Source: Branchiostoma floridae (taxonomy: Eukaryota > Chordata > Leptocardii > Amphioxiformes > Branchiostomatidae). Taken from it: a stretch of DNA of 64,000 nucleotides. The stretch covers positions 2,476,113 through 2,540,112 of the forward strand of contig NC_049987.1 in NCBI RefSeq assembly GCF_000003815.2, written 5' to 3'. The position numbers and the translations under genes were made by a program. The notes below the pieces were generated by a model. That model did not search any database, was not told the origin of the DNA, and saw only the letters and a list, made by a program, of their open reading frames with translations. Within the stretch, counting starts at the first letter, position 1; each line of letters begins with the position of its first letter. Of this stretch, positions 43,878 through 61,800 are shown one piece after another.

Positions 43878-46800
43878 CTGGAGGAAGACAAATTGTTCTA
43901 AATATATGGAACAGAGCAAAGGCATCCTTCACCACTGTTTTTCACTTTGTCTTCTCAGTACCAAACTTTCATGGTATGAGAAACTTTAACTTATTCTCGG
44001 AACTAAATGTTCACGGTGAACGAATTATTTGTTAACATCAACAAGACGAATTCTTTGTTATCAGTTATTTTAATGATTAGTTCATGTTAAAGTCATCACC
44101 ATGAAAACCATGAAATTGAAAAAAAATCAGGCATTACAGTATATTTCTAATACATTCCTGATCATTTGAGAAGGGGCACAAACTCAATAAGTTTTTCTTT
44201 TTAACTGTATGTTTCAGTCTCAAAGATTTATCTGTGACTTGCTCAATACTGTAGACATGCACTTTGACAAGGGTGGGTACATTAAAAGACACTGACTTGC
44301 AATGATAAACTGTTACAGATCATTAGACAAAAGAATCAATCAAAATGTAAAATTTCCCACCTGGCTCATGAGGAAGTGCTTCCCCATCTCACTTTCGAAG
44401 TAAGGTGGAACATCTTTGTTCTTAAGGGCATTTCTACCTTCCTGCTCCTCTGCTAGCTCTCGTCTGGAGAGGAACAATAGAACACAATGTTTAATAACTT
44501 ATTTGTCAACTGTTCAGCAAAAAACAATGAAATGTTTACTACTACTTAGAATAGTACATGTACTAGACACAGTTACACATCCAAACTTAATGCAGAAAAA
44601 CAGAATCTGTTGAGAAGCTGGGATGAGTACATACTTGAAGACATAAAATGTAATTCTATTATTATTTCCTATATCAGTTTAAAGTTATGATTATGGATGA
44701 CTTCGGATGAGATAAAAGTATTAGACATTACCTGTCCCTGTCCCAGTCGTCCTGTGTACGTTTGTTCCTGGGTGTAGGTGGAGGTTCGGGTGGAGGTACC
44801 TCCACTGCTTTCTCATACGCAGTAGTAACATCACCTGACGACATACATGTATACATTTTGTAAATAACTTGTCTGCATTAGATTTCAATTTACACTTTAT
44901 TGCTGTACTAATATCAAGTCAAACTTACAAAATTTACTTCAGGATTTCAAAAATTTCCATACAATGGCAACAACATTAAGTTTACTAATTTCACTACTAT
45001 AACTGAGTTACAGTAACTCAGTGATTATAACCTCCCTCAGTCCTTAAGCATGGTAAAATCAAGCATGGTGGCTTCTTGTGTCAAGAAGGATAAGTTGAAA
45101 CTTACCCTCCATCACGGTGACTTTTTTATCTGCACTCTCATGGTGTTCAGTTTCCTGTGCCTGTCCAAAAATCTGCAACAAAAAGGAGGAAAACAAAATA
45201 TTAGTGATTTCAAAGTTAACTATAATTCTAAATATTTCAAGTTTAACTGTTAGCTAAACAATGTTGTTGACACACAAATGAGTACACTGACAACAACATG
45301 ATGGCTTATTCTAGGGATACTGTAACAGTGGGGTTCAAGCACTGCCAACCGACCATGCCAAATGCCTGTCAGGCTTTTGGCCGAATCAGTTGGGTGCTTG
45401 GTTTGGGGAGCTTGGCTGCCCCAGTCTGGCACGATAGGTCACGGGTTCAAATGCCGGGAGCAAGCTTAAAGTAAAAACTGTTCTACTCGCCTCTAGTGTT
45501 TCACTGGTTCCCACACCAGGAAACGAACCTGGGCCTTGGCGATAAGAGCGCCAAATCCTATTATAATTACTAGACCATATGCTCGGAGATTCGAGGACGA
45601 ACCTTCAAAAGAAAAGAGGGAGTAGTGTAACAGTGGGGTTCAAGCACCGCCAACCGTCCGTGCCAAACACCTGTCAGGCTTTAGGCCAAATTGGTTGGTT
45701 TGTGGAGCTTGGTCTGGTCCGATAGGTTGCGGGTTCGAATCCCGGGAGCAAGCTTGGGGTAAATACTATTCTACTTGCCTCTAGTGTTTCAATACATCTA
45801 GCACACTATACACAGTCAACACGATGCTGTACCGTCTGTGAAGCGAGGTCCGCAGCGTGAATCTTCTCCTCCTCTGTCCGTGGATCCTGTACCATCAGCG
45901 CAGCGCTGGTCTGTTCACGCTCTAACACGTGCTCCGCGTACGCCTTCAGCCCCAGCTGCAGCCGCTTTCTCAGGTCCTCGCTTACAGGTTTATACTATCA
46001 AAAACAACAAGTGGGATAACAGTTTTTTAAACTTGTTACTTAAAAGATTGTTGAGATGGACTCTATGGCTCATGGTTTCAACAGTTTGTCATTACCTTCT
46101 GTCACAATATTATACATTGTAATAGCAACCAATCAATCAAATCAATAAAGTGAATTTAGTGCAGTACAATTGTACTCATACAGACAGCTACTTAGAATTC
46201 AAATATCATTTAGTGACAAAATTACTAGAAGAAGAACTTTATTGCGCAACGATCGTACACGGTACAATGTATGGTAAAGAAAAAAGAAGAAACAAACTTA
46301 ACATCCTAATTATTAAACATAGTACATATACAGATTATGAATATAGAATGAGATTACTATCACATTACTATCAGATGGAGGAAATTCTAATCTAGCCACA
46401 TTGTATACTGATCAAATTTGAATGTGCCCTTGTACACACTCATCCAGCAAACCATAGGAGGTACTACTATTATTAAAGACCTACACCATATAGTGGCAAA
46501 GAAGTACTTGTTTTCTATCTGCTCCACACTTCAAAAACCTTTTGTGTCAGAACTGGGATTCCACAATGAGTTTACAGACCTGTACATGGTGTCAGAAGTG
46601 GGATTCCACGATGAGTTAAACAGACCCGTACATGGTGTCAGAAGTGGGATTCCTTGAGTTAAACATACCTGCACCAGCTGTCTGATCTCCAGTGTGTCAG
46701 GACAGTGTAAGATTGGCACGGGTCTGGGAGACGACATCACAGACCCCACGCTCAAACCCTTCCCCACGTTGGTACCAAACGACGGTCCCGGCGTCTTCTC

Positions 46801-58800: not shown

Positions 58801-61800
58801 CCACACAACATTCACGTCCCCAGGATACTACCGCCCTCCCAGCATGCTTCGCGCAGAAAAATACGTTCTCTGTCCCAGGGCTGTCTTTGAGAACAAACCA
58901 CTAGTAGCCCCCATGCGGCCCAAAAGTGAATTGCATAAAAGACTCGCACACGCATATTCAGTGGAACAAGACAATTTATTACGACGCTGTGAAGGAGCGT
59001 GCTGACTGCTAACGAATGACCCAAAGGTGAAATAGCTGGGATTTATTAGGGGAAGAAGGGAAGGGGAGAATCACTAACATCTGTGATGACAAGGACTATG
59101 GCATTAAGAAATTCACAATAAAAACTTGATTTCTTCTTTTGCATGTACCTGTATGAAGACACAGCACCATCTAGTGACTTCTACATGAACTGCAGTTACC
59201 TGATGGGGACCTGGACTTCTTCTTGGGTGACTGGGATCTCTTTCTCTGGCTCTTGGAGCTGGATGGCCGTGAGGTGTCGGGGGTTGTTACGGGAGTCTTC
59301 TGTAGAGCCAGCTCCTTTGCGAGCAACTCCGCCTGGAACTTGGCTTCCTCCACACGAACCCAGTCTGAGATGTTCTCTGTCACGTGTTCCAAGTAGTTTC
59401 TGTGCAAATTTGATGAAAATTTGGTTCAGTACACAGATTTTCTCTTAAACAGGTATGAGGATGCTGAAAAATGGACCTCATTTCATTCATTTACATTTTG
59501 AACAGTTACTTTATCTTTAGAATATTGGTTCAAAGTACAATTCAAAGATTTGATGTGACAAAAAATCTGTGAATTTTTTTCTTTCTTTCTGATCTATTTT
59601 TCTCTCTTCTTTCTTTCTCTCTCTTTCTCTCTCTCTCTCTAAGCCTTCATCTAAGTGGAGGTAAGTGTTCCAGGCTGTGTGGTTGTGTGGATGTTTGTAC
59701 TAACCTGAAGCCCACATCAGAGTGGAGGTAAGTGTTCCAGGCTGTGTGGTTGTGTGGATGTTTGTACTAACCTGAAGCCCACATCAGAGTGGAGGTACGT
59801 GTTCCAGGCTGTGTGGTTGTGTGGATGTTTGTACTAACCTGAAGCCCACATCAGAGTGGAGGTAAGTGTTCCAGGCTGTGTGGTTGTGTGGATGTTTGTA
59901 CTAACCTGAAGCCCACATCAGAGTGGAGATAAGTGTTCCAGGCTGTGTGGTTGTGTGGATGTTTGTACTAACCTGAAGCCCACATCAGAGTGGAGATAAG
60001 TGTTCCAGGCTGTGTGGTTGTGTGGATGTTTGTACTAACCTGAAGCCCACATCAGAGTGGAGGTAAGTGTTCCAGGCTGTGTGGTTGTGTGGATGTTTGT
60101 ACTAACCTGAAGCCCACATCAGAGTAGAGGTAAGTGTTCCAGGCTGTGTGGTTGTGTGGATGTTTGTACTAACCTGAAGCCCACATCAGAGTGGAGGTAA
60201 GTGTTCCAGGCAGACGTTTGTACTAACCTGAAGCCCACATCAGAGTGGAGGTAAGTGTTCCAGGCAGACGTTTGTACTAACCTGAAGCCCACATCAGAGT
60301 GGAGGTAAGTGTTCCAGGCTGTGTGGTTGTGTAGATCAGGACCCAGGGGGTTGTGGAACACCATCATCATGGAATGGTCTCGCTTGTGGTAGTAACTGTC
60401 CATGTGGGAGTACTTGAACTTGGCTTCGTCCAGGACCTGCATAAACCAAATACGGGAAGGATTGTGTTAATTAAATGCTGGACAGTCTGGTCAGGTACTT
60501 TGATGCCACATTATTTTCCATGATGCCACAATGAATATGGCAGTAAGGACAAAGTGACTTTACTGCATTGACAATGACGAGGACAACTAATGATGCACAT
60601 GATGATGGATTGACAATTGCTGTGACAGAAAATGGCACAAATGCTGCATTATCTCCACTAGGCTTTGTTACATTCATAGTTGACAAGGACAGGTTTCTTT
60701 GACAATATTAGAAATACTGTGAAAATACCTACATACGCAGTAGGCATCTGTCTGAGAGTCTATATGGCCTTAGTCTGAGCCTCTATTGACAATGTTAAAA
60801 CCCACATTCACATCAGCCCTACAGCAACAACTATGGCTAAGCAGTCCTAGTATAGGAGACTACAGCCTCTGCCATATAGGACACTTCTGTAAGCTGAAAA
60901 ACTCCCCCAGACTACAGAACTATGAAAACTTGTGACCTTACCTGAATCAGAACCTCTGGCTCAAAGTGTTCTGCGAAGCACCAGTCATCCAACTGTCGCT
61001 TCTGTGTGGCCTCAATCAGGTTCACTGTCACGTGATCTGATTGGTCCTCTTCTTCTTGTTCCTCTTGGGACTTCTGTTCTGCTTCTTTGGATTCTTCTTG
61101 TGCTTTGTTTTCATCTGGTATTTCTTGAGATAGAGACTGTTCCTTACCTAGAATACAAAATATACATTATGCACGATGCCATGTATGGTACTTTGAATTG
61201 ATTTATCAATTGTTGCTCTCAAATAAATGCCTAAATTGTAGGCCACGAGAAAGAAAAGAAAAAGAAAGGAAGAATAGATGAGGAAAGGAAGGATAGATGA
61301 GGACAGGAAGGATAGATGAGGACAGGAAGGATAGATGAGGATAGGATGGATAGATGAGGAAAGGATGGATAGATGAGGAAAGGATGGATAGATGAGGAAA
61401 GGATGAATAGATGAGAACAGGAAAGATAGATGAGGACAGGAAGGATAGATGAGGAAAGGAAGGATAGATGAGGAAAGGAAGGATAGATGAGGAAAGGAAG
61501 GATAGATGAGGAAAGGAAGGATAGATGAGGAAAGGAAGGATAGATGAGGAGAGGAAAGGAAAGATAGATGAGGAAAGGAAGGATAGATGAGAACAGGAAG
61601 GATAGATGAGGAAAGGAAGAATAGATGAGAACAGGAAGGATAGATGAGGAAAGGAAGGATAGATGAGAACAGGAAGGATAGATGAGGAAAGGAAGGATAG
61701 ATGAGGAAAGGAAGGATAGATGAGGAAAGGAAGGATAGATGAGGAAAGGAAGGATAGATGAGGAAAGGAAGAATAGATGAGAACAGGAAGGCTAGATGAG

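Follow-up and report, generated by a model that had tools for sequence, protein, structure and literature searches.

SPAG17 and its tandem repeat arrays

We analysed a stretch of 64,000 nucleotides (nt) of the lancelet Branchiostoma floridae (NCBI RefSeq assembly GCF_000003815.2, contig NC_049987.1, positions 2,476,113 to 2,540,112 of the forward strand; hereafter the window), in which the gene for sperm-associated antigen 17 (SPAG17) carries tandem repeat arrays at several of its 5' splice sites (donors). The gene model for SPAG17 comprises 32 predicted exons on the minus strand (38866..63956), and every junction between them is phase-consistent. A low-scoring predicted exon at 29811 is not part of the gene and was excluded from the model. 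The joined predicted protein matched chain x of PDB entry 9ijj ('Sperm-associated antigen 17') in two pieces, with E-values of 7.7e-133 and 1.5e-51 respectively; a Pfam search with SPAG17 revealed nothing beyond a sub-threshold match to Tcp10_C. Upstream, the gene runs on past the window edge into two flanking stretches, L002 and L023, the latter being the furthest 10 kb upstream that we examined. The part in L002 gave a joined piece of 239 amino acids (aa; E-value 2.9e-48), and L023 contained three predicted exons and no array detectable with Tandem Repeats Finder (TRF).

TRF detected arrays at the donors 46669, 47766, 52731 and 60282 (A1 to A4, Table 1). All four are real and each sits at a SPAG17 5' splice site. 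Both the arrays and the four exon ends had been pointed out in the original prediction, and the exon ends agree with the 32-exon model. The consensus units of the four arrays, compared by eye, are unrelated to each other, as had been claimed as well. At the sensitivity of the search used, the A3 sequence occurs at a single place in the genome, which is represented by one assembled haplotype. Within the 102-bp (base pair) unit of A2 the donor recurs at a distance of 26 bp, and hence one donor has been duplicated at least two times. In A4 the outermost copy is degenerate and lacks a donor, and the exon-end part of the unit comprises 37-51 nt. Among the seven inner copies of A3 the intronic part of the unit varies more than the exonic part (8/105 versus 1/287 alignment cells, p = 1.5e-4); A4 leans the opposite way (intronic 0/128, exonic 4/408, p = 0.58), and these opposed trends yield no rule on the divergence of exonic and intronic unit parts.

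Table 1. Array-bearing SPAG17 exons and their arrays; positions refer to the window unless prefixed with L002.
Feature	Position	Strand	Description	TRF rows
Exon with donor CAG|GTATGT after 46669	46669..47020	-	junction with next exon gap-free against 9ijj_x	
Exon with weak donor CAG|GTATTA	47766..47913	-	junction gap-free against 9ijj_x	
Exon with donor TAG|GTGGGT	52731..52848	-	2-residue gap close to junction in 9ijj_x alignment	
Exon with donor CAG|GTTAGT	60282..60436	-	junction SDVGF/RNYLE gap-free against 9ijj_x	
Exon at fifth array	L002:5313-5474	-	donor after 5313; part of the 239-aa piece	
Array A1 (donor 46669)	46544..46669	-	intron start tripled, unit ~46; exonic copy not detected	46544-46653, unit 46, 2.4 copies
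Array A2 (donor 47766)	47553..47836	-	unit ~102; ~71 nt of exon end plus intron start	47553-47836, unit 102, 2.8 copies
Array A3 (donor 52731)	52320..52769	-	8 copies of 56; exon-proximal spacing 58; 39 nt of exon end plus intron start	52320-52769, unit 56, 8.0 copies
Array A4 (donor 60282)	59654..60336	-	donor present in ten identical copies; the two units closest to the exon measure 54, those beyond 67	59654-60211, unit 67, 8.3 copies; 60162-60319, unit 54, 2.9 copies (overlapping rows extend over 59654-60336)
Fifth array (donor L002:5313)	L002:4731-5384		six copies beginning in the exon and extending into the intron	unit 114, 5.7 copies

Outside the window, the upstream part of SPAG17 in L002 revealed a fifth array, again on the donor side. 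Its six copies are spaced by 114, 114, 114, 121 and 116 bp. The intronic part of its unit can form a hairpin with a 13-bp stem directly behind donor 5313 (minus strand), with an RNA energy of -19.1 kcal/mol over 60 nt. A further repeat of SPAG17, a 19-bp minisatellite with 53.5 copies (61264-62284), lies within an intron and touches no splice site.

Exon ends are repeated at donors

Each exon's last 40 nt were aligned to the intron downstream of it and its first 40 nt to the one upstream, with crossed pairs and shuffles as controls. We tested 40 SPAG17 exons, 32 in the window, five in L002 and three in L023; before the count, a predicted donor inside the fifth array (L002:4971) was replaced by hand with the first donor, 5313. 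At a threshold of 28 the exon end recurred in the adjoining intron at 4/40 donors and 0/40 acceptors. The four positive donors (47766, 52731, 60282 and L002:5313) scored 70-80, and SPAG17 exons without an exon-copying array reached at best 24 over the donor, acceptor and both crossed comparisons. The repetition of exon end plus intron start that had been proposed for all four arrays of the window is thus confirmed at 47766, 52731 and 60282, but not at 46669. There, the exon end scored 17, and the match of the last 20 exon nt to the intron did not exceed that of shuffled sequence (1000 shuffles, P = 0.80). Local alignment of this donor region to its copy showed that the periodicity begins at the last exon base (G|GT). 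A1 abuts its donor and, unlike A2 to A4, does not copy the exon itself. The donor-side position of independent arrays holds throughout this gene, including the fifth array, which the original prediction did not cover.

Among 79 exons predicted elsewhere, no donor and no acceptor (0/79 each) passed a score of 32; one crossed pair and one shuffle reached 28. These control exons are ab initio predictions with a score above 12, made by an exon finder that had been retrained on SPAG17 itself, and were taken without a homology check, so that some may be false, which would reduce their effective number while hiding nothing at donors; those from window positions 1-31000 are plus-strand only. A Fisher test of 4/40 against 0/79 donors gave 0.012, post hoc. 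The other sequence examined comprised 265,855 non-N bases, with 11 arrays of unit 40-130; few exons turned up in its random sample, which consisted of 19 pieces of 10 kb each including one made up entirely of N.

If arrays were placed randomly in introns or over their boundaries, each would span a donor with a probability of 0.066-0.136, which gives 6.7e-5 for four arrays all spanning donors by chance and about 1e-3 for the three exon-copying ones. The array density elsewhere leads to an expectation of 0.12 at 40 donors, as compared with four exon-containing arrays seen (Poisson P = 9e-6; 5.8e-4 over all 119 sampled donors and 6.9e-3 over all 238 boundaries). The window was picked for its cluster, so these chance figures flatter the donor enrichment; the fifth array alone is unaffected by this selection. 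The enrichment at donors is post hoc; the clustering of arrays in one gene, all of them on the donor side, looks unusual.

Copied donors and the reading frame

Donor-like GT sites had been described for the copies in general. They are evident in A4 (10 identical CAG|GTTAGT donors), A3 (8 motifs, seven TAG|GTGGGT and one TAG|GTGAGT) and A2 (5 CAG|GTATTA donors, two per unit), and the fifth array has 6 donor motifs; the copies in A1, however, are weak. Scored with a metazoan weight matrix, the A1 copies reach 1.0 and 1.7 against 5.9 for the exon's own donor, and the TAG|GTGAGT copy of A3 reaches 6.6 against 4.1 for the own donor of that exon.

Joining the exons at the first, exon-proximal donor yields a protein that is conserved at three of the four window junctions (46669, 47766 and 60282), where it aligns gap-free to 9ijj_x. 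Switching to another donor of the window arrays gives a stop in 28/31 cases; the frame remains open at A2 +102, A4 +54 and A4 +108, and in A3 (+58) all 16 alternative donors lead to a stop. In the fifth array 3/5 further donors keep the frame open (+114, +228 and +342). Taken together, 30/36 alternative donors give a stop and 6/36 are open.

Donors with and without arrays were compared on the basis of five array donors, which leaves little power. Array donors have a median strength of 4.1 against 3.8 for the other SPAG17 donors (p = 0.95), and the median GC skew of the exon ends is -0.16 with arrays against 0.06 (p = 0.16). Neither exon length (p = 0.92) nor GC content of the exon end (p = 0.45) predicts arrays.

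Other features of the window

An open reading frame of 859 aa on the minus strand (25551-28127) contains the Pfam domains Exo_endo_phos (endonuclease) and RVT_1 (reverse transcriptase) and looks like a retroelement without long terminal repeats. The neighbouring gene at 2014-11283 on the plus strand shows a polycystin domain and channel matches (piece 8069-8782), and TRF found no array of unit >=20 inside it. A long degenerate AC repeat with 196 units extends from 17477 to 17867.

Relation to known repeat structures

The original prediction knew of no standard explanation for such arrays. Tandem repeats over exon/intron boundaries have, however, been published for amphioxus under the name 'mirages' (PMC3087553, PMC3902484). 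PMC3087553 describes a mirage in Adh3 with units of 10-72 bp, an acceptor-side mirage in the globin gene BflGb6 with units of 150-160 bp (6 and 3 units in two haplotypes) and a donor-side one of 157 bp in the globin gene BflGb9. Reverse transcription PCR (RT-PCR) on mirage genes is reported there to show regular splicing. PMC3902484 describes PGBD5 repeats of 60 and 108 bp that abut 5' splice sites, and a mirage in troponin C; two of the 108-bp repeats of PGBD5 form an exon in the annotation of the Joint Genome Institute (JGI), an exon that the authors omitted from the protein. Mirages have been suggested as a source of new introns (PMC3087553; mechanism in PMC3443670). A literature search by titles and abstract openings found no genome-wide survey of mirages.

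As far as these descriptions go, the SPAG17 arrays resemble mirages in that tandem units of minisatellite type run over an exon/intron boundary, many copies carry splice signals and the array borders, on one side, on the real exon; the units of mirages range from ~10 to 160 bp. They differ from the published cases in that a single gene holds five arrays and each of these is on the donor side, whereas the mirages described include an acceptor-side array. A1 stands apart from mirages in abutting the donor without a copied exon part, while the boundary is spanned at 47766, 52731, 60282 and L002:5313. With ordinary intronic minisatellites (variable number tandem repeats) the SPAG17 arrays share tandem units, few differences between copies and local homogenisation; unlike them, the four arrays that contain exon sequence extend across a splice site into coding sequence. 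This kind of structure is thus already known in amphioxus, where it has been reported gene by gene, and SPAG17 is a further case with the features of mirages.

Origin and maintenance of the arrays

We favour, with a probability of about 0.66, the reading that the SPAG17 arrays are mirages, i.e. minisatellites founded over or abutting a 5' splice site and tolerated while the exon-proximal donor is used. A short tandem duplication that covers or abuts the donor would have founded each array, which would then have expanded into the intron by slippage or unequal exchange. The exon-proximal donor, as the first to be transcribed and the one joined to the true exon, would stay in use, and later copies would be removed with the intron. 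Since coding sequence must remain intact, the arrays would lie towards the intron, and continued use of the exon-proximal donor would make them tolerable. Selection would account for at least part of the surplus of donors over acceptors: an acceptor copy would act as a decoy upstream of the true one and, judged from the way splice sites are chosen, is likely to be tolerated less well for this position. In line with ordinary minisatellite turnover, the copies are nearly identical and show local patterns (in A4, 54-bp units by the exon, 67-bp units beyond and a degenerate outermost copy), and the frame-breaking effect of most distal donors counts for first-donor use. The gap-free alignment over three junctions shows indirectly that the first donor is the right one. 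How the arrays arose, which donor the RNA uses and why donors are preferred are inferred; as to the donor used in RNA, the RT-PCR published for other genes lends some help.

Several observations weigh against this reading. The junction at 52731 has a two-residue alignment gap nearby, and that at L002:5313 falls in a poorly conserved linker, where longer in-frame exons are possible. The retrained exon finder, unaided, chose two donors inside arrays (60174 and 47832), which shows that sequence by itself does not make the first donor an obvious pick. A selective filter can thin out arrays at acceptors but cannot enrich donors over intron interiors, and yet donors are richer here; it also leaves unexplained why SPAG17 has four exon-containing arrays and the 79 other predicted exons none. 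Finally, the nested duplications in A2 and the start of A1 exactly at the junction favour a process on the donor side.

Such a mutational process, acting at exon 3' ends or 5' splice sites through, for instance, slippage or repair coupled to transcription or to short matches near AG|GT, could seed the duplications there more often than elsewhere; we regard it as possible, though doubtful. In addition to the donor surplus over both acceptors and expectation, it would account for the beginning of A1 at G|GT and for the two nested duplications of one A2 donor (26 and ~102 bp). It also fits the fifth array, which lay outside the original finding, and the PGBD5 repeats that are said to abut 5' splice sites (PMC3902484). 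Against this stand the 0/79 donors elsewhere, the small number of arrays, the post hoc choice of the window and a one-sided sign test in which four donors versus no acceptors amount to 1 in 16. The acceptor-side mirage described for BflGb6 (PMC3087553) means that, contrary to the original prediction, the process also acts elsewhere than at exon 3' ends. R-loops, which had been put forward in the same context, gained no support from the five array donors and were rejected: the GC skew at array exon ends leans, if anything, in the direction opposite to the one they require. A rather unlikely extension is that in amphioxus duplications repeatedly start at the 5' splice sites of certain genes and that exon-adjacent units are kept stop-free and in multiples of three, forming an evolvable length module at exon ends.

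That the copies are kept by selection, either as spare donors or as in-frame modules of protein length, appears unlikely. The exon-adjacent unit is a stop-free multiple of three in three of the four exon-containing arrays (A2 +102, A4 +54 and fifth array +114), the +228 and +342 positions of the fifth array are open as well, and the PGBD5 units of 60 and 108 bp are also multiples of three, with two of the 108-bp repeats annotated as an exon by JGI (PMC3902484). Three out of four has, however, a P of 0.11, and 5/7 with the published units, among which the 157 bp of BflGb9 fail, a P of 0.045, post hoc. Moreover, every one of the alternative A3 donors gives a stop, and the authors of the PGBD5 study excluded the repeat exon from the protein. 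The buffered or redundant donors of the original prediction gained no support and were rejected: the five array donors, a sample of little power, are no weaker than others, and most of the alternatives give a stop.

An assembly artefact, in which two divergent haplotypes of Sanger reads were merged, is very improbable. If the assembly is that of PMC7269912, it was built from about tenfold Sanger data with HaploMerger2, and PMC3902484 reports repeat miscounts in this species between versions (2 versus 7 and 3 versus 6 copies). On the other hand, the joining of two alleles would hardly yield 8-10 copies of 56 or 67 bp that are almost identical yet carry single changes of their own, N runs occur in the window only at 12771-12870 and 37558-38271 and none in or beside the four arrays, and the PGBD5 repeats were confirmed by Illumina data according to the same source. 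We give next to no credence to the idea that the arrays are left over from the birth of introns, in which an exon piece containing AGGT was duplicated in tandem. The copies do carry AG|GT, as does the duplicated piece in the model of PMC3443670, and mirages were proposed as sources of introns; in that model, as described, the duplicated AGGT provides the new intron with both donor and acceptor, whereas the SPAG17 acceptors are unrelated to the repeats. The duplicated exon piece could not be traced at acceptor ends, neither in the acceptor test nor in either crossed test (0/40 each), and this explanation was rejected.

Implications

Should the length-module reading be true, a slip to the second donor would merely lengthen the protein, and SPAG17 with its cluster of five arrays would mark a hotspot of the process. 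Units in multiples of three would be favoured by selection if it matters that the second donor is used leakily. As SPAG17 has five arrays on the donor side and none on the acceptor side, a preferential start of duplications at 5' splice sites becomes a testable question. A second one is how the spliceosome holds on to the first donor where as many as ten identical ones are present. Since its copies share their sequence and differ in position only, the gene would lend itself as a natural system for testing donor choice.

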